64,000 nucleotides of DNA from Euphorbia lathyris (taxonomy: Eukaryota; Streptophyta; Magnoliopsida; Malpighiales; Euphorbiaceae). A model generated the notes under the pieces. The model was not told the DNA's origin and did not search any database. It saw only the letters and a program-made list of their open reading frames with translations. The stretch is from the NCBI RefSeq assembly GCF_963576675.1, contig NC_088915.1:35307501-35371500 (forward strand), in the 5' to 3' direction. Each line of letters begins with the position of its first letter. The stretch's first letter is position 1. Shown here one piece after another: positions 2,239 through 22,811 of the stretch. A program made the translations under genes and the position numbers.

Positions 2239-2373
2239 TTTATAATTTTTTGCAATATTAGACAAAAACGTTTTATTGTTAGTCTAGGCATTATTTTTGT
2301 ATAAATTGTTTATATATACTTTTTACTAACAAACATTCTTTCTTGTTTATAATTTATTTCATTTACTTATTTT

Positions 2374-3894
2374 ATGCACAACCGATCTCGGAGTGATACT
2401 CTCGTTCCTATTGATCTTGAAATTGAACGTACTCTTTGTAGGATTCGGAGAGAGAAAATGGCAAACCTCAACAATGAAGCTAACCAACCCGAGGTCAACC
2501 AAAGGCCGCCGGTGCAACCCGTTAACAACAACCGCAATGGTGGAGGCAATGACATGCGCTCGATGATGGAGATTCTTGCTCTGCATCGTCCTCAAAACCG
2601 CAACGGAATCGTTGCCCCCACCATCCCGGCCAACACATATGAAATCAAGACTAGCATGATCCAACTTATCCAACAACTTGGCCAGTTCGGAGGGGAACCC
2701 CATGAAAACCCTAACGAACATCTCGATAAATTTCTTATGTGTGCCGAAACTTCTCGGCAAAATGGTGTCCCGGTTGAGGCCGTCCGACTAAATTTGTTTC
2801 CTTTCTCTTTGACAGGACAAGCATTGGAGTGGTTGCACTCGTTGGAGGCGGGTTCGATTACATCATGGGTGGAACTTGAGAAGGAGTTCCTTCCTTACTA
2901 CTTCCCGTCCTCCAAAACGGTTAAGTTGAGGAACGACATCACTACCTTTCGGCAGCTCGAACACGAAGCCCTTCATGCGGCTTGGGCAAGATTCCGAAAG
3001 TTGCTTTGAAGCTGCCCGCACCACGATATCCCCAAGCACGATTTGGTAAGCACTTTTTATCACAGATTAACACCTACTAATCGTGCCACCGTGGATTCCG
3101 CAGCAGGTGGGGACCTGTTTAGGAAGTCGGCCAGTGAAGCATATGAGCTCATCCACGAGCTCGTAAGGAAAAGCGTACAGTGGCAAGAAGATCGGCTTGC
3201 CGGACCTTCGCGACATCAAACGTTCGCCGTGGAGAAAGAGGCTCCGAAAAGTTCCATGGCGGAAATGAATAAAAAACTTGACGCTTTGATAGCCCAGTTG
3301 AGCCTTAACAAAGTTGCACAGGTCCTGATGTGCAACCATTGTGGTGGAGATCATGACGGACTTAATTGCCAAGCCGGTAGCCCTTTCGCCGGCGACACCG
3401 AAAATGTAAGTTACATAGGAGGCAATCAAAGGTACAACCCTAACCTGAACTCCTACTCACACCACCACAATAATAATAACAGCGGATGGAGGCCTCGGTA
3501 CCAACACCCTCACTTGTCGTATGGCAATAATAATAATGTATTGAGGCCCCCATCCGACTTTGATCAAGAATATCGAGAAAATGGGCTAGGGCAATCACAA
3601 ACCATGCCCGGTAATCGGAACACTCCACCTCCCGATAATGTGCATGGCCAGTCAGTAACGTCCTTGTTAAAGGATATCTTAACCCGTCTTGCCGATAGTG
3701 AGGTGTTTTGCAGGGACCTTAGCCGCCAGGTAGCCCACTTGAATCGTCAGCAACAGGAGAGGCCATTAAGAACCCTCCCGACAAACACCGAGCAAAACCC
3801 GCTGGGCAAAAATAGAGAGTCCGGACAGGCGATAACTCTCCTAAATAGTAGAAGTTCGGACCCGTCGAGTTCCAACTCGGACAGCCTGCAGTGA
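2374..3894 (+). pseudogene. gag: gag of element A, one in-frame stop
   Basis: Encodes the Ty3/Athila Gag, which assembles the virus-like particle and packages RNA. The first part starts with 'MHNRSRSDTLVPIDLEIERT', which parallels 'MRRAGPPVFPIDLELERT' in the gag of element B. The retrotransposon-gag core (about residues 90-215, with 'LNLFPFSLTGQALEWLHSL') is clear. The zinc knuckle CNHCGGDHDGLNC (CX2CX3HX4C) is one residue shorter than the standard spacing, as in element B. A TGA at 3007-3009 interrupts the frame; the protein continues in the same frame to 3894, and the position fits an Arg CGA codon that became TGA. The ORF ends shortly after 'GQAITLLNSR', the counterpart of 'VMAITLRSGKE' just before the protease in B. 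Gag is therefore kept whole and pol is absent. Confidence 0.88.
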
Positions 3895-4118: not shown

Positions 4119-4793
4119 ACGCGGAGCGTACACACCAGTACGCCCCGCGTACCTGCGTGTCTGTCCCCATTTTCGTAATTAAAGACATGCTACGCGGGGC
4201 GTCTATCCTACCACGCCCCGTGTACCTTCAACCGTTGGGACTTCCGTTGAATAAAAGCCACGTGTGTGGACACGCGGGGCGCCCCTTAGGGCACGCCCCG
4301 CGTATCCTAGGGGAGTTGCGAATTGCAACTCCCCATGGCAGCCTTTTCCCCTTCCACCTTCCCCATCACTCTCTCCTCTTCCCCAAAAATATTTCCCACT
4401 TCTCCACTCCACCTCATCTTCCCTCCAATCACCCTTCACCTTTTCAAATTCAAACTTCTTAAACTTCCCTCCACATTAATTTCCCTTTAACCACCATCTT
4501 AATTACACTTTAAAAATCATAAAATCATTAAATATTCAAAATCCACCAATTAAAATTCATAAAAATTTAAAAACTCCCTTAAAACCGAAAAATAATGCTT
4601 CCACTTCCGTCATCCACGCGGGGCGTACCCCCATTTACGCCCCGCGTCCTCGCCTTTCTCCTACCAATTTATGGCCAGGAGGTGTGATACGCGAGGCGTG
4701 CTTCCCCCCAAGCCCCGCGTGCCGTGCCGTTTTTATGTCAAATAATGATCAGAAGGTGGGATACGCGTGACGTGGCCTCTTCACGCCTCGCGT
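4119..4793. repeat. Six inverted pairs of the 11-bp GC-rich motif upstream of the accessory ORF
   Basis: Each pair has a forward copy (ACGCGGGGCGT type) followed by a reverse-complement copy (ACGCCCCGCGT type). Starts are 4119/4140, 4192/4213, 4272/4293, 4616/4637, 4689/4710 and 4763/4783, so spacing is 21, 21, 21, 21, 21 and 20 bp. Each pair can fold into an 11-bp hairpin with a loop of about 10 nt. The motif matches the LTR array, but there the partners are direct rather than inverted. The last copy ends about 50 bp upstream of a TATA-like box. Confidence 0.9.
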
Positions 4794-4841
4794 ACCCCTC
4801 TGGGAATCCGAGTTTTACTTGGATTCCCCACTCCTCCCCTT

Positions 4842-4847
4842 TATATA
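4842..4847 (+). promoter_or_regulatory. Possible internal TATA box for the accessory ORF
   Basis: TATATA in the context 'cctttatatactc', followed by a pyrimidine-rich leader and, 88 bp later, the ATG at 4935. Together with the motif pairs just upstream it repeats the arrangement in the LTR (motif array, then TATA). An internal promoter giving a separate accessory mRNA is inference. Confidence 0.45.
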
Positions 4848-4934
4848 CTCATCCCTTTTTCCTTCTTCTCCCCCACAACTCACCCTTACTCCCCACACTC
4901 TTCCTACACTCTCTCTCAATCCCTCACTAACACC

Positions 4935-6197
4935 ATGGCACGACGCAAACATGTTGCCGACATGCACCCCCCCGCGGTCCACTCGGGCCCGTACCTCTCA
5001 TTCCCAACTACGCCAATCACCACCACCCCCCGAACGAGAGGAAACACCGCCACTCACCCGCCAATACCGGGCTCCTTTCCATCTTCTCACCGAAGAAGAA
5101 GCCCAATCCTACCAAACACTCTCTGCTGCCCACATAATGGAACTTCCATACATCAATCGCAGCACTCTTGATCGTTTCGGCTTTGGAGGTGCTTTTGAGG
5201 ACCGCCTCCGCGCTCTAAACAGGCTCGATCACTATCGGGCACGCCACCATGTTTATTCTTCGTTGGTCGTGGAGTTCTACACCACCCTCGAGTCTAACGG
5301 GGTTCCCGGAGCCGCCCTCTTCAACTTTTGCCTTCACAACCACCCTTTCTCCATTGACACGCAATGGCTTCGCAACCATTTCACACATCAAGTGGAGGAG
5401 GGCATAGCACATTGGCCCAAGGGTGTCTCCCCTCGTGATTTTTGGACCTCCATCACCGGGTCCGACGATTACGATGTCTCCAACCTCCGCCCGGCCTGCA
5501 TCCACGATCCAATCCTCCAACTTCTCCACCGCTTCATCTCCTTCTACTTCTCGGGGAAGTCCGAGTCCACCAAGGTCAATAAGCACGAGCTTTTGGCCCT
5601 CTATTGTTGTGCAAATGGCCTCACCTACGACCTTTCCTACCTCGTGGCCGTCCAACTCCACCACATGCCCACCCGAAAACGTGGCAAAATCGGGTTGGGC
5701 CATCTCATCACCATCTTCGCCACCTCCACTATTGGCGAAGCTGCCCTTGACCGTCTTCCCAGCTTGGAGCCTCAGACTTTGGACAAAAATGCTTTCAAAT
5801 CTCTCAAGCGCCCTACTTCCGGTCCGGGTGAGAGTTCGGGGCAGCCCAACCCCAAGAGGACGAGGACGAGGGATCGGACTCAGACATGGGCCTAAACTTT
5901 AGCCCACCGCCCAACCATGACTTCAACTCCATATATGCTCGGTTGGATGCTTTGGAGGGCCACCAACGTGCCGATCGCGCACACTTTGACTCCCTATTCG
6001 CCACCCTCAACACCCGTTTTGACACCCTTGAGGCTAATCGCCTCATGGACCATTCCACCTACATCACCCGCTTTAACTCTATTGAGGCCCAAAGGCGTGA
6101 GGATCGGGCCCATCTCGATGCTCGCTTCGACGCTTTCACCAACACCTTCTCCTCCTACTTCAACATCCACGGCAATCCTCCTCCGCCTCAACCCTAG
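4935..6197 (+). pseudogene. ATHILA ORF-1-like accessory protein of element A (frameshifted)
   Basis: This is the non-gag, non-pol gene found in Athila-type elements; its function is unknown. The ATG at 4935 opens with MARRKHVADMHPP in one frame. After a run of six C (about 5024-5029) the reading continues one frame over with 'LTEEEAQSYQTLSAAHIMEL'. The core carries 'VVEFYTTLESNG', 'DFWTSITGSDDYD', 'ELLALYCCANGLTYDLSYLV' and 'KIGLGHLITIFA'. Near 5830-5850 the frame returns, giving an acidic stretch (EDEDEGSDSD) and a C-terminal helical region (5886-6197) with repeats of the type 'FDTLEANR..DH..Y..RFNSIEAQRREDRAHLDARFD', likely coiled coil. The domain order matches the accessory ORF of element B (14865-16252). 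Two frameshifts suggest a dead copy unless sequencing errors in homopolymers are responsible. Confidence 0.72.
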
Positions 6198-6422
6198 TTT
6201 ACCTTCGTTTGTTTTATGTTTTCTTCTTTGTTTTCTGTTTTTCCCTTTCATGTTTTATGTTTTTAGTTCGTGTTGTCTATGTGTTTCTTTTGTTGTTTTT
6301 GTGTTTCGATTGTACTTTCCTTTTATTTTGAATATATTTCTGATTTTCCTTTATGTTTCGTTTTGTTTATTTCCTCTTTTCGTGTTCATTTTTCTCTGTT
6401 TATGCATCAATAAAAAATCTTC
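6198..6422. other. T-rich 3' trailer of the accessory ORF
   Basis: Repetitive T-rich sequence ('ttttgtttt' types) with no coding motif, between the accessory stop and the downstream inverted motif pairs. Confidence 0.5.
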
Positions 6423-6600
6423 ACACGTGGCGTACCCCATTTGACGCCCCGCGTGTTCCATCGTTTTACCTGTATAACTGGCCCAGAGCTCGGAATACGC
6501 ATGGCACCCCTCTAAGTGCGCCCCGCGTATTTGAGTCTCTGGCCAAAATAAACTTACAACGCACCTCCTACGCGGGGCGCCCCCTGGGCACGCCTCGCGT
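6423..6600. repeat. Three inverted pairs of the 11-bp motif downstream of the accessory ORF
   Basis: Forward/reverse starts are 6423/6444, 6497/6518 and 6570/6590 (spacing 21, 21, 20 bp). They have the same arrangement as the six pairs upstream of the ORF. The first two forward copies are degenerate (ACACGTGGCGT, ACGCATGGCAC) but their reverse partners are well conserved. Confidence 0.87.
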
Positions 6601-7432: not shown

Positions 7433-8710
7433 TGTTAGGCATGAAATTGACTAAGTTTAACTTGATATTTATAAGGGATTTGGGTGTTATTTATGCTATA
7501 TTGCAAAGAATAAGGACTGATTAATGTCTTTATGCAGATTAGTAAAGATAAATGCTAAACACGCTGGAAACAGCTTGTTTCGCTACAGCCAAAGAGGAGT
7601 GGAGCCTTTCTTATGTCCAGTGGTCAAACGCCGGATTATTCAATGATGGACAACGACAGATCAGAGGTGGCAGAGGCAGCGACAGAGCAGCAGGTGGAGA
7701 AGTGTAGAGGCGACATTACCTAAAGAAGCATGATGACATGAAGTATCAACCCTTGAGTGTTCAAGGGTCAAAGGATCTTTAATCATTTCAGTTTATTTTG
7801 TTTTAGTTTTTTTAGTTGACTTATTTTCTGGAAGGGTACGAAGGTTGTACCAATTTTGCCCCTGTCTTTCTCCTTTAAGTAGGCGTAGCAAAGGAAAGAT
7901 ATGGAGTTCGGAACTTTTAGTAATTTTGAGAAGTAGAATAGTTGTTTGTAGAAAGAAAGAAAAGAGAGCTCGAATGGAGTCTCTTAAAGTTTTAAGAACT
8001 ACCGATTACTCACTGCTCGATATGAGTGAGTAGTCTATTTTGAATGGGCACGGCCAGGCCGAGCCGGTAATGTAAGTTTTACATCGTTTTTAATGAATAT
8101 TTAGTATTTTGCCAATGCTGTGATTGATGAGGATTTAACTTTCATGCCTTGGCATTTATGCATGTGTTAGATGGATGATAGGACACTGCTTACATCTTCA
8201 CTGATATCTCTATTAATCTTCCAACCTCGAAGCTGACCAGTTAGATGGTTGTGTCAAGGGTTTTCTTAATCAGAAATGCAGTTTTGTTCTTAATGCAAGA
8301 AAGAACGTATCTTTAGGACGCTAAAGGTTCTAGTAAACCTTAGGAGCTTGAGAACACACAAAAGTTGACTCAAGCTCACATTAAAACTGATACTTTGGCT
8401 TCATTGGCATTATCCTGTATTCATTGGAATGTTGTAAGGCTTAGCACAACCTGTTCGGCAGTGTCGAGCCTGTTCTATTTTCTAAATCATTACCAAGTTA
8501 TCTTATTTCTTACTGCGTCAGTCTTCTTGCATCCTTCGTAACCAACATCACACAATCAAATTAAAAGGGAGAAACATGTTTGACCCACACGCTGTTTAGC
8601 AACAATTTCTGATATACATTTGAATCTCAATCCCTGTGGAGACGATACTTAACTTATCACTTTATTACTTGTATCTAGTGCACTTGCTAGAGTCTCATTT
8701 GAGGACAACA
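7433..8710 (+). repeat. 5' LTR of element B
   Basis: Runs from 'tgttaggcatgaaattgac' to 'catttgaggacaaca'. The 62-residue ORF inside it (7845-8033) has no known motif and recurs in the other LTR only because of duplication. Confidence 0.95.
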
Positions 8711-8716
8711 AGTTTT

Positions 8717-8734
8717 TGGCACCGTTGCCGGGGA
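8717..8734 (+). promoter_or_regulatory. Primer-binding site of element B (tRNA-Asp type)
   Basis: TGGCACCGTTGCCGGGGA lies 6 nt after the LTR and differs from the PBS of element A at one base. It is the common Athila PBS, complementary to the tRNA-Asp 3' end. Confidence 0.85.
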
Positions 8735-8832
8735 TTGAAAGCAACAAACTTTATCTGAAATTTCTGTGAAACAGGGTGTTTTTAATCCATTTGCTAAGGT
8801 GTGCAGGAAACAAAGAAGTTCTTAACCTGTTT

Positions 8833-10062
8833 ATGCGTAGAGCTGGACCTCCTGTTTTTCCTATCGATCTCGAGTTAGAGAGAACGTGTAGACGAAACAG
8901 AGCGGGAGCCCGACGTGCTAGACAGAGAGAAAGACAAAGAGAGAGAAGAATGGCTGGAAGGGTACCACCCGAACAACCAGTTCAACCAAACCAAGAAGAA
9001 GAGGGAGAGAATAACAACCCTCCTGTTATGCGAATCAGAGATTATTCGAGGCCAACCACAGAGGGATATTCATCATGTATTGTGTTACCCAACGAGGGGA
9101 ACAACATGTTCGAAGTAAAGGGGTCCATGATACAAATGATCCAGGCCTCCGTACAATTTAATGGGTTTCAATCTGAAGATCCAAATGGGCATATTCAAGA
9201 ATTCATCACGTTGTGCAACACATTCAGATCGAACAGAGGTGTTTCTGACGATGTAATCAGATTGAAGCTGTTTCCTTTTTCCCTGAGGGATAAAGCTAAG
9301 AACTGGCTAAGAAATTTACAGCCAGGAACAATCACAAGTTGGGAAGAGATGGCGCGAGCTTTTCTGATGAAATATTTCCCACCACGACAAGCCATCAAAC
9401 TGAGAAATGAAGTGTCTCAGTTCATACAAGAAGAGGATGAGTCGCTGGCAGAAGCCTGGGAAAGGTATAAAGAGTTATTGAGAAGGGTGCCAAATCATGG
9501 TATCCCTATATGGATGCAAGTGCAAAATTTCTACAATGGCGTGACCAACATTTACAAAATTCAAATCGAATCCATTGCTAACGGTAACCCAGAAGATCTT
9601 GAGCCACAGGCTTTGTATGACCTTATTGAGAAGGTAGTCAGCACAAGTTACAACTGGCACTCAGCCAGAAGTGAAGGGAAGAAGATGGGAAATGATGATG
9701 TTGTGTCGAAACTGACAAGTCAGGTAGAACAGCTTGCTCGACAGCTGGGAAAGATAAACGTGTCTTCGATCCACAATGAACCACCATTCAATGACATTTG
9801 TGATTTTTGTGGAGGAGCTCATTTTAACATAAATTGTCCCGGAGTTAAGCAAGGAAAGGGCACACAGGCTGAATGTGACTACGCAGGGTATAATCAAAGG
9901 AACCAGCCTAACCGTTATTTTAACACGTATAACTCTGAAACCAGGAACCATCCAAATTTTGGATGGACATGCCAACCAGACCAGCTGGGACAACCACGGT
10001 ATCAAGACCAGCCAAGGTATCAACAACAGCAAGGAGGACAGTACCAACAACAACCTCAGTAG
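8833..10062 (+). CDS. gag: Gag of element B, ending at an in-frame TAG that separates it from pol
   Basis: Structural particle protein of an Athila element. I place the start at the Met at 8833 (MRRAGPPVFPIDLELERT) rather than 8776, because this opening matches related gag proteins including that of A. An Arg-rich N-terminus is followed by the retrotransposon-gag domain ('LKLFPFSLRDKAKNWLRNL', 'FLMKYFPPRQAIKLRNEV') and a zinc knuckle CDFCGGAHFNINC with CX2CX3HX4C spacing. The C-terminus is Gln/Tyr-rich. The TAG at 10060-10062 sits inside a Gln-rich run and the same frame continues into pol from 10063, so this is one gag-pol reading frame split by a single nonsense codon. It may be a CAG-to-TAG mutation or, less likely, a readthrough stop (next codon is CAA). 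Confidence 0.85.
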   Translation: MRRAGPPVFPIDLELERTCRRNRAGARRARQRERQRERRMAGRVPPEQPVQPNQEEEGENNNPPVMRIRDYSRPTTEGYSSCIVLPNEGNNMFEVKGSMIQMIQASVQFNGFQSEDPNGHIQEFITLCNTFRSNRGVSDDVIRLKLFPFSLRDKAKNWLRNLQPGTITSWEEMARAFLMKYFPPRQAIKLRNEVSQFIQEEDESLAEAWERYKELLRRVPNHGIPIWMQVQNFYNGVTNIYKIQIESIANGNPEDLEPQALYDLIEKVVSTSYNWHSARSEGKKMGNDDVVSKLTSQVEQLARQLGKINVSSIHNEPPFNDICDFCGGAHFNINCPGVKQGKGTQAECDYAGYNQRNQPNRYFNTYNSETRNHPNFGWTCQPDQLGQPRYQDQPRYQQQQGGQYQQQPQ

Positions 10063-12309
10063 CAATACAAGCAACCTGTGCCACAAAAGGAAGATGTAGA
10101 ACCAGATATGAAAACAATGATGATGCAGTTCATGAAACAGACACATGCGTCGATCAAGAATCTGGAGACACAAGTTCACCAGATAGCTGCATCCACGTCA
10201 AAAGGAAATGGAATAATGCCAAGCAACACAGAGCCAAATCCTAAAGGCGACGTCATGGCAATCACCCTAAGGTCTGGTAAGGAAACTCAACCAATTGTTT
10301 TTACTGATAAGAATGCTGAGTGTGCAAGAACGTCCAAGGAAGCTGAAGGGGAGCAGGAACAGGCCGTTCCTAGTAGTGAAGAAATAAGGAAGGCAAACTA
10401 CACAAGTAAGCCGGACCAAGAGGAGGGAGAAAGAATGTATAAACCACCACCGCCGTATGTTCCACCTGTGCCATATCCAACGCATCTAATCAATAAAAAG
10501 CTAGAAGAGCAGAATTCGAAAGTGTTGGATACCTTAAGGAAGTTACACATCAACATTCCTTTCGTAGAAGCACTGGCACAGATGCCGACATACGCCAAAT
10601 TCCTCAAAGACATCCTGTCGAACAAAAAGAAGCTGGAGAACATTTCCATGATACAACTCAACAGAGATTGTTCGTCAATACTCCAAAACAAGCAGCAGCT
10701 GCCCAAGAAGCTAAAAGATCCAGGGAGTTTTTCGATTCCTTGTTCAATTGGAAAGCTAAATATTGAAAATGCACTATGTGATCTAGGGGCTAGCATAAAC
10801 CTCATGCCGTATTCTGTATATGCAAAACTTGGATTAGGAGAACCCCAACCTACTCGTATGTCTATTCAATTAGCTGATCGTTCAGTATGCTATCATATGG
10901 GGGTTGTGGAAGACGTGCTAGTCAAAGTAGGAAAATTTATTTTGCCTGTTGATTTCATTATAATGGACATTGATGAAGACTTGCATGTTCCTATCATCCT
11001 AGGTAGACCATTTTTAGCCACAGGCAGGGCATTGATAGACGTAGGCGAGGGACAATTATTTTTAAGGATTAATGGGGAAGAAGTCATCTTTAAGATGAAT
11101 GAGGCAATGAGACGTGCAAATAATAATGATGACACATGCTGTTTCTTGGATGATTTTCAAAGTCTTTCTACTTTGCAGGAACAGGACACTTTAGAAACTT
11201 TATTAGGAGAAGAGGTGAACATATGCGAAGGAATAGGCTGTTCCATTGAATCCAGCCTACCGGCACCTCCTTTCGATCCTACTGTTCCTACTCATCAAGA
11301 GCCACCAGAGATACCAACTGTGCCAGTGACTAAACCAGAATTGAAACTGTTGCCTTCACACCTCGAGTATGCGTTCCTTGAACCACCCAGTGGAAGTCCG
11401 GTCATCATATCCTCAAAGTTAACTCCTGATCAAAAGGCGCAACTCATGGCAGTTTTGCAAAGAAACAAGGATGCAATCGCATGGAAAATTGATGATATAA
11501 AAGGAATTAGTCCTGCAGTCTGTATTCACAAAATCTTGATGGAAAAGGAGCATAAACCAACTATCCAACCGCAACGCAGACTAAATCCCCACATGAAGGA
11601 GGTTGTGCGAAAAGAAGTGATCAAGCTTCTCGATGCTGGCATTATTTACCCAATATCTGATAGTGTGTGGACAAGCCCTGTTCACGTTGTGCCGAAGAAG
11701 GGAGGAACAACAGTAGTCCTCAACGAGAAAGATGAGTTGGTGCCCACAAGAACGATTACAGGGTGGAGAGTTTGTGTTGATTACAGAAAGCTCAATGAAG
11801 CCACGAGGAAGGATCATTTCCCTTTGCCCTTCATTGATCAGATGCTGGAGCGGTTAGCAGGATATGCTTTCTATTGTTTTCTCGACGGGTATTCAGGATA
11901 CAACCAAATCGCAATTCGTAGTGAGGACCAAGAAAAGACAACGTTCACATGTCCGTATGGGACTTATGCTTACAGAAGAATGCCGTTCGGGTTGTGTAAC
12001 GCTCCAGCCACTTTCCAGCGATGTATGATGTCCATTTTTCATGACATGGTGGAGCGGACCGTAGAAATATTCATAGACGACTTCTCGGTTTATGGAAACT
12101 CTTTTGATAGCTGTCTAAACAACCTCGAAGCTGTGCTTGTGCGATGCAAGGAAACTAACTTGGTCTTAAATTGGGAGAAGTGCCACTTCATGGTCACGGG
12201 AGGAATTGTCCTTGGGCATAAAATTTCAGAGAAAGGGATGGAAGTGGACAAAGCTAAGGTAGAGGTGATAGAAAAGCTAGTTGTGCCCACCAATGTAAAA
12301 GATGTGTGA
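10063..12309 (+). pseudogene. pol: Pol of element B, part 1: protease and reverse transcriptase
   Basis: Same frame as gag. The linker contains 'GDVMAITLRSGKE', the usual mark before the protease. The protease domain follows with 'ALCDLGASINLMPYSVY' (active-site Asp in DLGAS) and the flap-like 'IIMDIDEDLHVPIILGRPFL'. RT follows: 'WRVCVDYRKLNEATRKDHFPL', 'YAFYCFLDGYSGYNQI', 'FTCPYGTYAYRRMPFGLCNAPATFQRCM' and the catalytic 'FIDDFSVYG' (Y/F-x-D-D class). The frame ends at TGA 12307-12309 where family members have an Arg before '[12 protein letters not shown]'; the sequence after the TGA still reads [15 protein letters not shown] in this frame. A short deletion then shifts the frame. Confidence 0.9.
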
Positions 12310-14218
12310 AGTTTTCTGGGGCACGCAGGGTTTTATCGCAGGTTCATCAAAGATTGCGATTCCTTTGTCGGCTTTACTTCATAAGGAAGCCGAATTCTCT
12401 TTCGATGCAAACTGTGTGAAGGCGTTTGAGCTCTTAAAGACCAAGCTGATCAACTTGCCTATACTGGCAGGACCGGACTGGGAGCAACCTTTTGAAATGA
12501 TGTGCGACGCAAGCGATACTTGTGTGGGAGCTGTTCTTGGACAAAGGATTGAGAAGAAGTTCCAGCCTATTTACTATGCAAGCAAGACATTAAACGAGGC
12601 CCAACAGAATTATACAACTACCGAGAAAGAACTTCTTGCAGTTGTGTATGCCTTCGATAAATTCAGACCCTACTTAGTGCTATCCAAGGTTGTTGTTCAC
12701 ACAGACCACGCTGCGTTGCGATACTTGTTTGCTAAAAAGGATGCTAAGCCGAGGCTGATCCGATGGTTATTATTGCTTCAAGAGTTTGATCTAGAAATAA
12801 GGGATAAAAAAGGAACGGAGAATGTCGCGGCTGATCATTTGTCAAGGATTGATCACCAAGGCAGTCAGGAAAGACCAGAGATTGTTGAGAGGTTTCCAGA
12901 CGAACATCTATACACTGCACAGTCTGCGCCATGGTTTGCCGATATTGCCAATTACCTAGCAAGTTCGCTCAAGCCTCACAAACTGTCCACTAATCAGAGG
13001 AGAAATTTTTTTGCTGAAATTAAATATTACTTTTGGGATGACCCTTATCTTTTCAGGTTGTGCGCGGATCAAATTATTCGAAGATGTATATCTCAAGAAG
13101 AGGGACAGGATGTTCTAAGCCACTGTCATGACCGTGAAGCTGGAGGACACCATAGCGCTAGTAGAACTGCAGCCAAGGTCCTTCAATCAGGTTTTTTCTG
13201 GCCAACGCTTTTCAAAGATGCCCATCTGTTCGTTAGCACTTGCGATGAGTGCCAGCGAACAGGCAACATCTCGGCTAGGAATGCTATGCCCCTCAACAAC
13301 ATAGTTGTTTGCGAAATTTTTGACATCTGGGGCATAGATTTTATGGGTCCATTCCCTACATCCTTAGGAAATAAATATATCTTAGTTGTTGTAGATTATG
13401 TGAGCAAGTGGGTTGAAGAAATGGCTAGTCCCACCAATGACGCCCGTGTGGTAGTAAAATTCCTGAAAAAGCTGTTTGCCAGATTCGGTGTCCCACGAGC
13501 GATCATTAGTGATCAAGGAACCCACTTTTGCAATGCCAAATTCGAGAAGCTGATGGGAAAGCTTGGAGTCTCTCACAGAATTTCCACACCTTACCATCCA
13601 CAAACAAGTGGACAGGTAGAGATTTCCAATCGTGAAATCAAAAGAATTTTAGAAAAAACTGTTGGCAATTCTAGGAAAGACTGGGCAAACAAGCTAGACG
13701 ATGCTCTTTGGGCATATAGGACTGCCTATAAAACACCAATTGGAATGTCTCCGTTTAGATTGTTATACGGAAAATCTTGTCACCTTCCTGTGGAAATGGA
13801 ACACAGGGCCTTTTGGGCATTAACTTTCTTAAATTTTGAGCAACAGGCTGTTGGAGATCAGAGAAAACTTCAACTCTGCGACATGGAAGAGTTCAGGCTG
13901 TTCTCATATGAGAATGCCGTGAATTACAAAAACAAGACCAAGCTGTGGCATGATAAAAAAATCCAAACAAAAACATTCCAAGAAGGTCAGAGAGTCCTCC
14001 TGTACAATTCAAGACTCAGGTTGTTTCCTGGGAAGCTAAAGTCAAGATGGACGGGACCTTATACGGTGCACAAGGTGTTTAATCATAGAGCGGTTGAGAT
14101 TGGCATGGAAGGTCAGGAACCTTTCAAAGTGAATGGGCAGAGATTAAAACCATATTTAGAGAACGATCACACAAGGAAGATTGATACCGTTCATTTCCAG
14201 GACCTCCCAAGCCAGTAA
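12310..14218 (+). pseudogene. pol: Pol of element B, part 2: RNase H and integrase
   Basis: After the frameshift near 12345 the protein reads '[19 protein letters not shown]'. RNase H carries [43 protein letters not shown] and ADHLSRI (D-E-D-D residues present). The integrase has an HHCC zinc-binding region ('[12 protein letters not shown]' then 'CDECQRTG') and the DDE core: [19 protein letters not shown], and Glu in '[14 protein letters not shown]'. The C-terminus '[14 protein letters not shown]' is the usual non-chromodomain tail of Athila. The stop at 14216-14218 is the natural end. These domains look intact; only the TGA and the frameshift disconnect them from RT. Confidence 0.9.
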
Positions 14219-14864
14219 AAGCACAAAAAGGGTGTTCGCTACAAACACCAATTGTAGCACAAGTAATTTTGCATTTTAATTATTTTAATTTAGTTAAATA
14301 GTGTCAATTGTAGTAGATTCATTTAACGTAGAACTGTGATTCATAATAGGTATCTTATGAACAGTCACAGTGGTAAAACTCAAACCTTTTCCTAAAGGTG
14401 TAGTTTTACAAATGTACCTGTTCCGTAGGGGAGCAGTATCTTGGGAAAATTGGGCGGCAAAAACAAAAAGAAAAAATAATATAAGTCAGAAAAAGTAGAG
14501 ACGTCCAATCCTATCCCCATAGGCACTCATCTCGCCTGTCTTCCTCGATGAAATCAAATGGATAGGGAGAAATTAATTCGAAATTTAAATCGTGACCGTT
14601 CATCACCCTTGATCCTATTTCGAATGAACATGCCGTTTTGCCAATCTGTCCAGGTGGCATCCTCTGAATCGACCTCATAATGACAGATTGGCAACGGGAC
14701 GTTTCTGCTCTCCCTACTTAAGAGCTCTACTTCATTACGGTCATTCGCTCACTGTATTTTTTTCTTTCTTTTCTTTTTCTTTTCTTCGTTCGTTCTTTTC
14801 ATTTAGACATTCCATGCTTTGTGCCCTTTACCACTGGGAAACATTATTTAAACTCGAGCACAGC
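14219..14864. other. Spacer between pol and accessory ORF of element B, containing a strong stem-loop
   Basis: No protein motif. The notable item is the 13-bp inverted repeat described at 14638-14694. It is the same location, just upstream of the accessory ORF, at which element A has its inverted motif pairs. Confidence 0.6.
14638..14694 (+). repeat. Stem-loop upstream of the accessory ORF of element B
   Basis: TTGCCAATCTGTC (14638-14650) and its exact reverse complement GACAGATTGGCAA (14682-14694) are separated by 31 nt. Outside the 13-bp stem the pairing can resume (CCGTT against AACGG) after a small bulge. Confidence 0.75.
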
Positions 14865-16252
14865 ATGAGAACCCGTGGTTCAGAAAAACACGTAAAAGTT
14901 GAGGGCTCATCCAAGAAAGAAAAATCGAAAGGGAAGATGACGGAGCCCAATACTGTAGCTTTTGTTCCAGATGAAAAACTGGTAAAGAAACTTTCCCAGC
15001 TCAAAGACGCAACCGTGCAGGCTTACTACGAAGAGCTGGCTAAGCTTGACTTCGGACCCATCCGAACAGTTTGTTGGGAAACCCTAAGGCGGCTAAAGCT
15101 TGATGCTCGTGTGCGCGTACTCATGGAGGCAGGCCACTTTGGATGCTTCTTTGAGATGAAGGAACTGCCTATCGGGAACTGACACTCGAGTTCTTGGCCA
15201 CTTTTAAGCACAACATGGAGATAACCGATCCTGAGGAAGAGGGAAAGTTCAGCTTCCGAAACATGGGACACTCCCAGAGGCCTTCACTCAACTTGTTCAA
15301 CCAGATGTTAGGCGCTGCCGATGACGATGACCTTGAATCGGAAAGCTACAAAAAGGCATTCACCAAGACGCCAGATGTCTTTGACCCTACGGCTTTCTAG
15401 GAGTCAATTTCGGGACAGAAATACTATGACGGTAGCGTGTCCAAGGCTTCCAATGTTGATGACTATGCAATCCGCTATTTGCACAAGCTAATTTCCAGCA
15501 CAATATTTGCCCGAGAAAATCAAGCCACCATGCCACATGCAGATCTCACCGCCTTGTAGAGTATGGCAGTTGGGCCGAGAATGAATCTAGGCTACTGGTT
15601 CGGAGAATACATCAGCGCTTTCTGCAAGAAGAACTCTTCACTCATCTGTTGTAGGAGCATCGTCACCAGGATTGCTGAATTGATCGGAGTTTTTAAACCC
15701 AAGGACCACTCTCGTCTCACGATTGTGAACCACCCGGACCAGATTGACCTCCGGAGCCTACAGAAGATGCTGTTCGGAAAGATGGTAAATGGGAAGTGGG
15801 TGTGGATGTCGGACTTTGTTACATCAAGGCAAACAGAAAGCCGAAAAAGGAAAAGCGAACCAACAGTGTTGGTCTCATCGGATTCTGAACAGGTCGAGAA
15901 ACCAAAGGACCTGGCCTTCTATCAGAAGTGTGCAAAGCTTTCCAGTGAGGATATAATGGACCGATTCAATGCCTTGTGTGCCCAAAATCAGGAAAACCGT
16001 GAAATGATATTCGCCATAGAACAAAAATACGAGTCACAATAGAGGTCGATCGACATGCTCAAAACCATTTGTATTGAGGAGCATGGCAAGGAAAGTCCCT
16101 CTGGTTTTTCTGAAAAGAGTCCGGTAAGAAAAGTGCCTGAAACACCTGCTAGTGCTCATGTTAATGCTAATGCTGGTACGTCCTCGAAAGAGGATGGCAT
16201 TCCTGCCACTGTGGATAGAGAGGTTAACTCCTCTCTCTCCCAACCCGTCTGA
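14865..16252 (+). pseudogene. ATHILA ORF-1-like accessory protein of element B (broken)
   Basis: Starts at Met 14865 (MRTRGSEKHVKVEGSSKK). A frameshift near 15165 separates 'RVRVLMEAGHFGCFFEMKEL' from the continuing frame, which reads 'YRELTLEFLATFKHNMEI', a conserved phrase of ATHILA ORF-1 proteins. In that frame stops occur at 15398 (TAG), 15557 (TAG) and 16040 (TAG). At 15398 element A has Trp ('FWTSITG' against 'F*ESISG'), so TGG-to-TAG is the simplest cause. The remainder includes 'RMNLGYWFGEYISAFCKK', a Lys/Arg- and Ser-rich stretch, and 'NALCAQNQENREMIFAIEQK', probably coiled coil. Function unknown; the same family as the ORF at 4935-6197. Confidence 0.75.
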
Positions 16253-16397
16253 TTTATCCAAATTGTCGCTGTCCTAGCATCTGGTAACCTCTAACACCCT
16301 TACTCTATCATGTTCTGCTCTGCCTGTATTATTATGCTTTCATTTATCTACAATCTACTGCCGTGTTAATAACATTGAGGACAATGTTTGGTTTTCA

Positions 16398-16412
16398 TTT
16401 GGGGGTGGGGAT
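16398..16412 (+). promoter_or_regulatory. Internal polypurine-tract-like sequence in element B
   Basis: 'TTTGGGGGTGGGGATT', preceded by 'ttgaggacaatg', resembles the true PPT region at 17792-17825 ('ttgaggacaagc' then TTTGGGGGTATT). It could prime internally; that is inference. Confidence 0.45.
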
Positions 16413-17813
16413 TGTGTATCACAATTTATGCGGGCATGACATGATAAATGCTTTAAATTTTGTTTGTTTAATTAGTAATTTGATGTAGAACAAATATCCC
16501 TTGAGAATCTCTGTTGCATATGTCCTTGGTAATTATTGTGATGCTTGTGTTCATTTTCTCTTCTGCCTATTTATTCACCATCTAGTCAATTGTTTTGTGT
16601 TCAGCGGGAATCAAAGAACAGACTGTGCATGTTTTGATGTAGCAGTTTAGTGTTACTTGCTTGTTTGCATTTTGTGTCCCCAAATCTGGAAGTTCCAAAA
16701 AATTTCAAATTTTTAATTCCTCTTTCAAAATTAGTAACCCTTGCCTTACTGCATTTTCCCAAATATAGTGAGAACTTGAGCCTAAGATTGCATCTATGGT
16801 ATGCATTGTTTCTTTTCTGAGTGGGCCAGCGCTCACTATCTTTAGGGAGAATTTGCCTTGGTGCCCTGTTGAAATGGTGATTGGTTCTGACTCTCATAGG
16901 AGGAAAAAGGCATTTAGTTACCCTCTCCGCTACACAAAAAGACATATGTGCTTTGCACTCCAATGATTAGGATAACCAAGTCGAGCCATGACATGTTCTT
17001 TCTAAAAAACCACGAATGATAGCCCTCTCCCTTCACTTGAAACTCTAAAACACCCTGAGTTCTGTCTTATGCTTCGAAAAGCCAATCGTTTAAAATAGAA
17101 TCACGTGCTTAAGTTATGCAAAAATAAGCGGTTGAGCAAATATTGCTTAGGAAAAGACTGAAAGGACTTGGGAATATAATGTGGGGAGGAAGGAACCTTA
17201 ATGAAATAACAAAAAGAGTACTGGGTTATGAGGAAACGGGTTGTGTAGATAAGCAAAAAGGGTGAATAACAGTAATCAATGTAGGCCGTGTAGGTTAAAT
17301 AAATTGAAAAAAGACAGAGTTCATACACTGAAATAGCCTTTCACTGTCAAACCTGAACCTAAGCCTAACATTACAACCTTTATAAAGTCCTTTGGACTAT
17401 GTCTGGAGGAACTTTGACCCTTAGATTCGGGACCAATAGGCAAACTCGCACCCTAAGGGTGTGGTGTCTGTGCTGAGGAGTGAAATCACATTCTTTTTTC
17501 TATGGTAAGTAAATGCCATTCGAGAGTGAGTGAATTATTCCATTCCTTAGTGAGGCGTGTCTGGCAAGTAGGTAACTCCTTATGAAAGAGGAAGTCTAAA
17601 TTTTAAGATTTAAGGAAGTTCTCGACCAAAAAAGACAAAATGTTTAAGACAAGCTTGAACTCTTCCTTGAAATCTTAGCATGCATCTGTTCATTTTCCTA
17701 ATTGCACCATACAATCTTTGTTTCCCTCTTCACTCTCTGAAACAAATTTCATTCCTAACTCTTCTTCTGATTCCTTCTTACAAGTTGTTGCTTGAGGACA
17801 AGCAAAGGTTCAA

Positions 17814-17825
17814 TTTGGGGGTATT
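17814..17825 (+). promoter_or_regulatory. Polypurine tract of element B
   Basis: TTTGGGGGTATT directly abuts the TG of the 3' LTR, the position required for plus-strand priming. Confidence 0.7.
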
Positions 17826-19102
17826 TGTTAGGCATGAAATTGACTAAGTTTAACTTGATATTTATAAGGGATTTGGGTGTTATTTATGCTATATTGCAAA
17901 GAATAAGGACTGATTAATGTCTTTATGCAGATTAGTAAAGATAAATGCTAAACACGCTGGAAACAGCTTGTTTCGCTACGGCCAAAGAGGAGTGGAGCCT
18001 TTCTTATGTCCAGCGGTCAAACGCCGGATTATTCAATGAGGACAGCGACAGATCAGAGGTGGCAGAGGCAGCGACAGAGCAGCAGGTGGAGAAGTGTAGA
18101 GGCGACATTACCTAAAGAAGCATGATGACATGAAGTATCAACCCTTGAGTGTTCAAGGGTCAAAGGATCTTTAATCATTTCAGTTTATTTTGTTTTAGTT
18201 TTTTTAGTTGACTTATTTTCTGGAAGGGTACGAAGGTTGTATCAATTTTGCCCCTGTCTTTCTCCTTTAAGTAGGCGTAGCAAAGGAAAGATAGGGAGTT
18301 CGGAACTTTTAGTAATTTTGAGAAGTAGAATAGTTGTCTGTAGAAAGAAAGAAAAGAGAGCTCGAATGGAGTCTCTTAAAGTTTCAAGAACTACCGATTA
18401 CTCACTGCTCGATATGAGTGAGTAGTCTATTTTGAATGGGCACGGCCAGGCCGAGCCGGTAATGTAAGTTTTACATCGTTTTTAACGAATATTTAGTATT
18501 TTGCCAATGCTGTGATTGATGAGGATTTAACTTTCATGCCTCGGCATTTATGCATGTGTTAGATGGATGATAGGACACTGCTTACATCTTCACTGATATC
18601 TCTATTAATCTCCCAACCTCGAAGCTGACCAGTTAGATGGTTGTGTCAAGGGTTTTCTTAATCAGAAATGCAGTTTTGTTCTTAATGCAAGAAAGAACGT
18701 ATCTTTAGGACGCTAAAGGTTCTAGTAAATCTTAGGAGCTTGAGAACACACGAAAGTTGACTCAAGCTCATATTAAAACTGATACTTTGGCTTCATTGGC
18801 ATTATCATGTATTCATTGGAATGTTGTAAGGCTTAGCACAACCTGTTCGGCAGTGTCGAGCCTGTTCTATTTTCTAAATCATTACCAAGTTATCTTATTT
18901 CTTACTGCGTTAGTCTTCTTGCATCCTTCGTAACCAACATCACACAATCAAATTAAAAGGGAGAAACATGTTTGACCCACACGCTGTTTAGCAACAATTT
19001 CTGATATACATTTGAATCTCAATCCCTGTGGAGACGATACTTAACTTATCACTTTATTACTTGTATCTAGTGCACTTGCTAGAGTCTCATTTGAGGACAA
19101 CA
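17826..19102 (+). repeat. 3' LTR of element B
   Basis: Partner of 7433-8710, with the same ends and about 15 substitutions plus a single-base deletion (near the 'caatgaggacagcg' site). TSD 'taagc' follows at 19103-19107. Confidence 0.95.
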
Positions 19103-19740: not shown

Positions 19741-21550
19741 TGATAGGGGTGTTTCATCCTTATCTTTTAGCGTGATTTACGGTTTAATTTTAGATGAAAT
19801 AAATAAGTTTAATTGCAAAAATAGAATGTTTTCATAAAATAACGAAATAAAAATAAATTCCGTACTTTCGGTTAATTTTCCTTATTTTTGATTAATTTAG
19901 AAAATAAAAGGTCAAGCTAACTCGACTCTCGAGAATTGTATTTCAGGTACGAGCAAGGAGCAAAAAATCCTCCAACATACGCGGGGCGTATCACCCTCCA
20001 CGCGGGGCGTGGAACACATTGTCAGAAATAATTGCTCAATCCACAGGCACCACGTGGAACTTACCCACTGCCACGCGGGGCGTCCTACCTTCCACGCGGG
20101 GCGTATGAGCAATGATAAGCAATAATGTCTCAATCATGAATGTCAGACTGCAAGATCTTCTAAGTCAACTAACAATACGCGGGGCGTACAACCAGACACG
20201 CGGGGCGTGTATGGGAAGTTCTTCAGTCCAAAAATCCAGAGACTTATTTACGCGAGGCGTGCTTCAGCTACGCATGGCGTAAAAGACCCAATTCAAGCAA
20301 TAAAATCTCAGAAACTCAACCACGCAAGGCACACCCCAGTCTACGCGGGGCATGGTTGAGACAACAAGGTCTGGATTTGGTCCACATGTAGGAGATTTCT
20401 GACGGAATGGGCAAATACGCGGGGCATACGCCACCATACGCGAGGCGTATCATGGCAAATCTATAGAAAATCATGTTCCTCCATGCTTGTATCTTATGAA
20501 ATTACAATTCTACCCCTAGCTTGATGTGTATAAATAGGAGTGACTAGCACTCATTTAAAAAAAAGCTTTTGACATACAACTCTTTGTATAAATGGAGCTC
20601 TTGTTATATAGTTTGAGATTTTATTTTACATAGTAAAACTCTATCACCTTGAGAGCTTGTTCGTTGATTCTGGCATCCCGTTAAAGCTCCGTTCCATCTC
20701 CGTTCACCAAGCTCGAAAGCTCCACCTCCAAGTCTTAAGAGACGGCCTTAAGTCCGGTTAGCTAGTTCCGAGGGTGGATTCTTCCTTTTTCACTTGCTAA
20801 TTAGCTTGTACTCTTCCTATGTACTAGGCTTGGTTGTATTTCATATTTACATTCTCCATATTTATAATTTATGATTCATAATCTCTTTTTCTATATATGT
20901 GTTGATGTTTGTTACTTGTTTTGATACTCGTAATTGATTATTGTGTAGGAGAACGCGATTTCCGACGCCATTCGGGCTATCTTTAGGGATTCATATAGGT
21001 GTTGCCTTACCGAAAGTGACGCTCCGGAAACCGTAGGAATTGACAAGCCACGGAACTTACGGGCCCTAATTTCTGATCCCAAGCATTAGACACGCCTTGA
21101 CTAGGAACCACGTAGTCTAAGTACTTCACGGGTCGATCACACTACACGTAGTCGTCATTGCAAGAGTAAATCATTAACCGTATATATATTGGGAGTCATT
21201 GTTTGTCATATTTATAACTTATTGCCATCCGTATCATTTTGTAGAGTTTTTGTTATATAAATTTGTCTCACCGTAGTTAGGAGTAGTTTGTAGTTGTTCC
21301 CGAATCAACTCAAAGTATTCACCGCTTAGATAACGTATAAAACCGAGTCGTTTAATACTTGTAGTTATAAATCTCGTGGATTCGATACCCGGTCTTAACC
21401 GGATTATTACTTGATACGACGGGGTACACTTGCCCCTAAGTAGTAGCGTCTAGTAGAGATAGAGCATTTAGGAAGATCACATCCATAGTCGTAACGCACT
21501 TATCATAATATATATTTCTTAAAAACTCTACCTAGCCGTTTACGCCATCA
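19741..21550 (+). repeat. 3' LTR of element A
   Basis: From 'tgataggggtg' to 'ttacgccatca'. The six direct motif pairs lie at 19979-20448 with the same 20-21 bp spacing. Copy 4 is intact here (ACGCGGGGCGT) where the 5' LTR has ACACGGAGCGT, while copies 9-11 carry G-to-A changes (for example ACGCGGGGCAT). The TATA box is at 20529-20536. Confidence 0.95.
19979..20448. repeat. Six direct motif pairs in the 3' LTR of element A
   Basis: Same organisation as 639-1108, shifted by 19,340 bp. Spacing is preserved although some copies have decayed by transitions. Confidence 0.88.
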
Positions 21551-21555
21551 AAGTA
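21551..21555. repeat. Target-site duplication of element A, right copy (aagta)
   Basis: Matches 396-400. Confidence 0.92.
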
Positions 21556-21808
21556 TAAAAAAAAAACAAAGAAATACGGAGAGATCAATTACATATCCAT
21601 TGTAAGGGTATATATAGGACGTGTTGTGGTTAGAGTCTCTTTTTCTTTGGGCTTCTTCATGGGCCTATTTGGTAGGAATACGGGCCTTGATCCACCTTCC
21701 TCAACAGAATCCCCTCCTTGGAGGTCCCTTCAGTATTGATGTGAGATTTAAGAATATGAAATTGTCTTATGGCGTGACAAATAATAAGTTTTCCACAACT
21801 TCTGCATT

Positions 21809-22811
21809 ATGAATATAACTATGTCAGTTAGGGCGGCTTATGAATATAATTGTGTATGGGACGTTTATGAATATAATTGTGTTATTTGAGACGGCTTATG
21901 AATATAAATGAGTCGATTGGAACGAGTTATGAACATAATTGCGTCGCTTAGGACAGCTTATGAGTATAATTGAATCACATGGGGACGGCTTATTAATATA
22001 ATTGCGTCAAATAGGGATGACTTATAAATATAAATGTGTCGCTTGGGACGACTTATGAATATAACTGCGTCGCTTAGGACGACTTATGAGTATAATTACA
22101 TCACATGGGGACAACTTATGAACATAATTGTGTCATTTGGGATGACTTATATAATTGCATCACATAGGGATGGCTTGTGAACATAATTGCATCATATGAG
22201 ACCACTTATGAATATAAGTACATCACTTGGAACGACTTAGGAATATAATTGTTTCATTTGGGACGACTTATTAATATAATTGCATCATATGAGACGACTT
22301 CTGAATATAATTGCATCACTTGAGATGGCTTATTAACATAATTGCATTGCTTAGGATGGCTTATGAGTATAATTGTGTCACATGAAGACTGCTTGTGAAT
22401 ATAATTGTGTTATTTGGGACTGCTTATGAATATAATTGCATCACATGAAATAGTTTTTGAATATAATTGCATCATATGGGACGGCTTATGAATATAATTG
22501 CATCACTTAGGACGGTTTATGAACATAATTGTGTCACTTAGGATGACTTATGAGTATAATTGCATCACATGGCAATGGTTTATAAATATAATTGTGTCGT
22601 TTGGGGTCGGATTATGTGTATAATTGCATTATATGAGACAGTTTATGAATATAATTGCACCACATGAGACATCTTATACATATAATTGTATCACTTGAGA
22701 TAGCTTATGAATATAATTGCATCATATGGGGACAGCTTATGAATATAATTACCTTACTTGGAATGGCTTATGAACATAATTACGTCACTTATGAGGGCTT
22801 ATGAATATAAT
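21809..22811. repeat. Minisatellite: about 32 degenerate units of 31 bp
   Basis: Units follow the pattern 'atgaatataattgcatcac' plus 'ttgggacggctt', mostly 31-32 bp with a few shorter ones. Divergence between units is high, so the array is old. Certain unit pairs (one with 'cttaggac..ctt' followed by one beginning 'atgagtataattg' with 'tcacatggggac') recur four times, suggesting a higher-order structure. No long reading frame persists across it. The sequence before it (21556-21808) shows nothing recognisable. Confidence 0.9.

Follow-up and report, generated by a model that had tools for sequence, protein, structure and literature searches.

Paired ACGC/GCGT boxes in the LTRs and around the accessory gene of an Athila-type retrotransposon of Euphorbia lathyris as candidate DNA-level promoter sites

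A stretch of 64,000 nucleotides from Euphorbia lathyris (contig NC_088915.1), referred to here as the window, contains an Athila-type LTR retrotransposon without pol, element A, in which a single 11-bp motif, ACGCGGGGCGT, is used in two arrangements. It is paired head to head around an accessory gene and paired in direct orientation in the LTR. The question raised by this locus is what such paired boxes are for, and whether they act as DNA, where they could be binding sites, or as RNA, where they could form hairpins bounding the accessory transcript. Both possibilities had been put forward in a preliminary description of the window. The features of element A on which the argument depends are given below.

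401 to 2214, + strand: 5' LTR of element A, beginning with TGATAG and ending with CATCA
19741 to 21550: 3' LTR of element A
396 to 400 and 21551 to 21555: target-site repeat AAGTA of element A
2353 to 3894, + strand: gag (PF03732) of element A, a single frame interrupted by a stop codon at 3007-3009
4935 to 6197, + strand: accessory gene region, with ATG at 4935, a PF03078 match inside the open frame 4771-5895 and a stop at 6195-6197
7433 to 19102: nested LTR retrotransposon B inside element A, with gag and pol and with LTRs 98.7% alike
639 to 1108, + strand: LTR array of 12 forward motif copies, forming six direct pairs with start-to-start distances of 20-21
4119 to 4303, + strand: triplet c1, inverted pairs 4119/4140, 4192/4213 and 4272/4293
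4616 to 4793, + strand: triplet c2, inverted pairs 4616/4637, 4689/4710 and 4763/4783
6423 to 6600, + strand: triplet c3, inverted pairs 6423/6444, 6497/6518 and 6570/6590

The two LTRs of element A are 96.4% identical, and its coding content consists of gag and the accessory ORF, pol being absent. The accessory ORF matches the ATHILA ORF-1 family (PF03078) with an E value of 1.4e-6 and 27.9 bits against a cut-off of 20.2. The sequence TGGCGCCGTTGCCGGGGA, located 3' of the 5' LTR, is taken by us to resemble a tRNA-Asp-type primer site. Nested element B has zero motif matches when as many as 2 mismatches are allowed, and it has no repeated word of a similar kind either. A sub-threshold Rfam match to the plant snoR71 (37.1 bits, cut-off 40) was seen in the gag region of element B at 9397-9503 on the minus strand. 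Directly beyond the 3' end of element A, at 21802-22811, short units (tatgaatataattg...) are repeated in a degenerate tandem array, and further long repeats that are 97-98% alike (39003/58330, 41143/48609, 43132/49850) occur between 39003 and 59813; these are probably other transposons.

The motif is a quasi-palindrome, ACGC-GGG-GCGT, which matches its reverse complement at all but 3 of 11 positions. Its orientation therefore rests on the central GGG/CCC alone. At up to 2 mismatches 42 matches were found in the window against 2.54 expected, and the highest number in 100 shuffles was 7. The 3' LTR of element A retains 11 of the 12 LTR copies at this threshold. All nine inverted pairs reported earlier, six before and three after the accessory ORF, were recovered at their positions with start-to-start distances of 20 or 21; these fall into three triplets, with c1 and c2 preceding the ORF and c3 following it, with a pair-to-pair repeat of about 73 bp and one step of 80 in c1. 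The triplets, each shorter than 200 bp, have a GC content of 0.60-0.61 and a CpG observed/expected ratio of 1.19-1.32, and motif arrays are restricted to non-coding DNA. The description of one motif in two orientations, inverted inside and direct in the LTR, thus holds; the word "identical" does not, as exact copies account for 6 of the 18 internal arms and there are 4 mismatches in the left arm at 6497. It had also been said that the arrangement is hard to explain by chance or by simple duplication. The part on duplication is too strong, because duplication of a unit of about 73 bp together with two founding arrangements would yield the orientation rule by descent. Rfam gave zero matches at E <= 1 over the motif arrays, and in a viral contig collection an exact inverted pair spaced by 10 nt occurred at 0 places. 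One occurrence of that pair on a Gemmatimonadota contig was taken as chance.

Relatives were collected as loci around exact inverted pairs (10 kb each for 20 loci, 5 kb each for 9), and three further loci (L035-L037) were picked by their LTR pairs; all 32 lie on contig C1. In type-1 copies the layout is gag, c1, c2, ORF, c3, tail and LTR, and the pieces are about 65-95% like those of element A. Among the 29 loci chosen by an exact inverted pair, all nine slots are filled as in element A in 16, the remaining 13 being type-2, truncated or deleted copies. Those picked by LTR pairs carry all three clusters (L037), c1 and c2 (L035) or c1 and c3 (L036). An extra c3 pair is present in L023, L028 and L030. 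In L013, L032 and L036 clusters are fused and the accessory gene match is gone, an outcome to be expected if motif arrays recombine with each other. The type-2 copies (L008, L011, L022 and L025) resemble type 1 in LTR and tail, lack an accessory ORF match and carry 4-5 inverted pairs before the shared tail. The pol region was checked in two of them. In L008 the order is protease, RT, RNase H, integrase, as in gypsy elements; next come five inverted pairs, then the tail common to both types and a similar LTR. L022 gave RNase H and integrase, and its inverted pairs lie downstream of pol. To judge from its sequence, type 2 is thus a candidate supplier of pol and a possible autonomous partner for the pol-less type 1.

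When orientation was left free, and ties and matches with more than 2 mismatches were dropped, LTR motifs in element A and the first 20 loci were forward in 273 of 273 cases and adjacent LTR pairs were direct in 122 of 122. Adjacent internal pairs were inverted in 103 of 103 in 15 type-1 copies, i.e. element A and 14 loci. In the whole genome of 1.02 Gb, exact pairs with a spacer of 6-12 nt numbered 853 head to head and 6,830 direct (3,318 and 3,512 on the two strands), with 0 tail to tail; reversed-pattern controls for these counts gave 0. Among the 50 head-to-head matches listed the spacer was 10 nt in 45, 9 in 3 and 8 in 2, and the start-to-start distance was 20 or 21 in 188 of 190 internal pairs. 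The same 20-21 bp spacing is found in the direct (LTR) and inverted (internal) settings. One turn of the DNA helix is 10.5 bp. Distances of about 21 and about 73 bp are near whole numbers of turns (two and seven), and complexes formed on them would therefore share one face of the helix. The step of about 80 bp in c1 is out of helical phase, which is evidence against the explanation that we favour below.

Conservation is concentrated in the arms. Identity between nine full copies is 88% in arms, 74% in loops, 68% in DNA between pairs and 78% in the nearby non-coding "mid" DNA; DNA between pairs thus evolves faster than its neighbourhood. Within the motif the central base is the most variable and the two half-sites are kept about equally. 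Conserved arms with a variable centre have the look of a symmetric protein site, as far as sequence can tell. The two LTRs of element A differ at 6 of 132 motif positions, at 7 of 354 positions between motifs and at 44 of 1325 positions elsewhere, and this greater divergence of the motif counts against a DNA-level site. All six motif differences are G/A, as would be expected of CpG decaying after insertion.

An alternative is that the pairs act as hairpins in the genomic RNA, for packaging, dimerisation, 3'-end formation or as Dicer substrates, in which case selection would act on the stem. Inside the element every pair is inverted, and the genomic RNA would contain them. Each of the nine folds better than nearly all of its dinucleotide shuffles (0-2 of 200 were better, z -2.7 to -6.9), and three direct LTR pairs tested in the same way gave z values of -1.2 to -1.9. 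In 13 of 20 copies a word of the AATAAN type lies at most 30 nt upstream of c3, and in element A it is as follows.

6409 to 6414, + strand: AATAAA just 5' of c3

Selection on the stem was looked for by permutation, dealing right arms anew among copies of the same slot in 190 pairs from 23 copies. The number of paired cells was 1877 of 2090 against a permutation mean of 1876.7 +- 3.1 (P = 0.52), which speaks against the stem. Cells changed on both sides and still paired numbered 15 against 10.35 (P = 0.052), which is weak evidence for the RNA reading; as the copies are related, the shuffle P values are rough. Smaller sets gave P = 0.38 for mismatches and P = 0.58 for pairing including G-U in the nine pairs of the window, and P = 0.60 and 0.83 for the same two measures in 119 pairs. 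RNA covariation as the main cause was rejected as not convincing on 9, 119 or 190 pairs. The scan behind the two larger sets took inverted pairs only, with spacing 18-23. The 190 pairs exclude the type-2 and fused loci L008, L011, L013, L022 and L025, L015 and L032 as deletion derivatives, an unassigned c3 pair of L018 (7084) and, in L023, L028 and L030, the additional pair that opens c3; L035-L037 lie outside this set. The modal arms contain a mismatch in 5 of 9 slots, such as T facing C in c2p3, and full pairing was seen in one copy each for c1p3 (of 21), c2p3 (of 21) and c3p3 (of 20). Moreover, the spacing is unchanged in direct pairs, which cannot form full stems together. The alignment of relatives that had been proposed as a check thus showed inverted pairing to be conserved, and compensatory change in the stems was not convincing. 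Hairpins in the genomic RNA are unlikely in our estimate. The more specific idea of hairpins bounding the accessory transcript was not well supported, given arms without convincing covariation and several stems that share a mismatch in most copies.

Two further inverted repeats, here called caps, follow the first two triplets.

4310 to 4334, + strand: cap1, inverted repeat GGGGAGTTGC-GAATT-GCAACTCCCC, following c1
4802 to 4828, + strand: cap2, inverted repeat GGGAATCC...GGATTCCC, following c2

The caps are conserved, and their sequences are unlike the motif and unrelated to each other. In cap1 there are 2 pairs and 4 cells changed on both sides; 1 of 500 shuffles attained its covariation score, but 163 of 500 had as many such pairs and 438 of 500 as many pair types. 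In cap2 there are 4 pairs and 4 cells, and depending on the measure between 0 and 8 of 500 shuffles did as well. These figures come from few events in related copies. Some compensatory change in both caps, weak as it is, is what an RNA model would predict and counts against a DNA-level explanation. The caps could be structures formed in RNA or in DNA; they could also be additional symmetric sites.

Two TATA boxes, the internal one predicted, follow arrays of the motif.

1189 to 1196, + strand: LTR TATA box TATAAATA, 91 bp past the start of the last motif copy
4842 to 4847, + strand: predicted internal TATA box (TATATA), at an offset of 48 after c2

The word TATAAATA[G/A] begins 89-91 bp (once 99) after the last motif start in 24 LTRs, these being the ones in which motif and TATA were both found within 120 bp. 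In the interior, a TATA-like word was found by pattern 44-48 bp (about 46) past the last c2 arm in 19 of the 21 copies that possess pair c2p3, and the two others have TATTTATATC at this place. The same TATA-like words occur in 14 of 947 windows of 40 bp in the neighbouring AT-rich DNA. In L014 the internal TATA stretch is lost. An ATG follows at 134-152 after c2, which is about 90-105 bp beyond the internal TATA-like box. If the predicted box is used, the six upstream pairs would stay outside the accessory transcript, because they lie 5' of it.

The accessory ORF of element A itself is broken by frame shifts en route, its C-terminal part being open to the stop at 6195-6197. An open frame of more than 400 aa was found in 7 of 12 relatives (L006, L007, L009, L010, L018, L019 and L023). 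In 13 aligned copies, differences from element A at the three codon positions were 438/3118, 345/3116 and 1084/3114 (0.140, 0.111 and 0.348 per site), a pattern that shows past purifying selection on the accessory ORF. The open frame of element A has no membrane-like stretch (maximum hydropathy 1.21 over 19 residues), and a protein search with the accessory frame gave no match at E <= 0.001. A single-sequence fold of 5059-5838 reached a pLDDT of 47.7, too poor for use. An NLS-like run that ends the open frame of element A was set aside, as it seems to be the product of a frame change; L019 reads another frame there.

Taken together, the paired boxes are probably binding sites that act as DNA, both for the LTR promoter and for an internal promoter of the accessory gene. 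The earlier suggestion of DNA-level binding sites gains from the conserved arms, from a spacing that is constant in both orientations and from a TATA-like box at a near-fixed distance. The motif would be a double-stranded DNA site of two ACGC/GCGT half-sites around a 3-bp centre, and we infer that it is bound by a protein. Sites would work as side-by-side pairs 20-21 bp apart in arrays repeating every 73 bp or so. The LTR array upstream of the LTR TATA box would drive the full-length genomic RNA, and c1 and c2, upstream of the second TATA box, would drive a distinct mRNA encoding the accessory protein, with transcription starting at the internal TATA box. The triplet c3, just past the accessory gene, could be a downstream enhancer or a boundary, and a similar array is common to type 2. 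Against this explanation stand the internal arrays of type-2 elements, where an accessory ORF match is absent; not every internal array, then, would serve an accessory promoter. Among candidate readers, CAMTA (CGCG box) presumably fits the left half-site alone, yet the halves are about equally conserved, and VOZ (palindromic GCGT/ACGC site), we assume, does not seem to fit the spacing.

The reader could also be encoded by the element. VANDAL elements are DNA transposons. Passages on VANC21 and VANC6 describe their targets in VANDAL as a short motif in dense non-coding arrays that evolve by tandem repeats, and VANC21 as binding such motifs in the non-coding parts of its own element (PMC5735166). 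By analogy, the arrays of element A could be targets of anti-silencing or methylation, CpG-rich landing sites of an element-encoded, VANC-like protein, perhaps the accessory protein. The likeness lies in a short motif arrayed in the non-coding parts of one transposon family, here CpG-rich and recurrent across family members, and in an accessory ORF under selection whose open frame in element A is without a membrane-like stretch. VANC targets, for which the reader of the motif is known, are the nearest case of an element-encoded reader. On the other hand, the VANC21 motifs are in one orientation, whereas those studied here are "+" in the LTR and head to head inside, type-2 elements have arrays despite lacking an accessory gene match, and the single-sequence model of the candidate accessory protein is uninformative. 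An anti-silencing role is, on balance, rather improbable. More doubtful still is a two-part system in which the paired sites are recognised by the accessory protein and the 3-bp centre, direct in the LTR and head to head inside, is an orientation code by which this one regulator tells the genomic promoter from its own. If this were true, the pol-less elements would bring the gene of an activator and type-2 elements the enzymes, and the family would have its own sequence-specific regulator.

The orientation rule may be functional, or it may merely be the record of two founding arrangements spread by unit duplication. In the extreme case two founder arrangements would have spread by tandem duplication and retrotransposition and the sites would have no function. 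Such neutral expansion would agree with the array repeat of about 73 bp, with the gain and loss of pairs seen in the extra c3 pairs and the fused clusters, and with LTRs of element A that diverge more at motif positions than beside them. It agrees poorly with CpG-rich arms that are better conserved across copies than loops, inter-pair and neighbouring DNA, and with TATA boxes held at a near-fixed distance from the arrays. We regard it as very improbable.

The closest layout described belongs to Sireviruses, which are Ty1/copia elements. The passages on their RM boxes in Bousios et al. 2010 (PMC2829016) report a symmetric, CG-rich LTR motif upstream of the TATA box, palindromic with a CGG-CCG core, in at least eight copies whose clusters form CpG islands. 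According to the same passages, further copies lie upstream of the env-like gene and none in elements without that gene, the boxes are Sirevirus-specific and absent from the classic elements compared, and an internal promoter is proposed, though not conclusively identified (PMC2829016). Element A is similar in having 12 copies in its 5' LTR, then TATAAATA at 1189, and extra clusters upstream of an additional gene. The differences are also clear. The host here is a Ty3/gypsy element of Athila type, as indicated by the gypsy-order pol of the related type-2 element L008 and by the ATHILA-family accessory ORF of element A. Unlike the CGG-CCG core, the motif has ACGC/GCGT half-sites, is asymmetric at 3 of 11 positions and contains no CCG in its forward form. 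Its sites are paired at 20-21 bp, direct in the LTR and inverted inside, a TATA-like box adjoins the internal array, and type-2 elements without an accessory gene match keep 4-5 inverted pairs.

Within the Athila/Calypso/Diaspora lineage, passages of PMC1142308 describe long LTRs and an extra ORF that is present in Athila and Calypso and lost in Diaspora; motif arrays of this kind are not described in those passages. Element A agrees with this lineage in its long LTRs and its ATHILA ORF-1 family match and differs in having gag and the extra ORF but no pol. The forward letters of the motif also occur inside the lettuce FISH probe Oligo-ls350, which, in the part of the source concerned, labels chicory as well (PMC11598091). 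An earlier description in Ty3/gypsy elements was not found in a literature search covering titles, abstract openings and few subscription papers. The best reading of the layout is that it would be a Ty3/gypsy counterpart of the Sirevirus RM boxes.

How the third, env-like gene of plant retrotransposons is expressed is an unsettled question. A box common to the LTR TATA box and the internal TATA-like box makes the idea of an internal promoter directly testable, and the box-plus-TATA layout would reach beyond the Ty1/copia Sireviruses.
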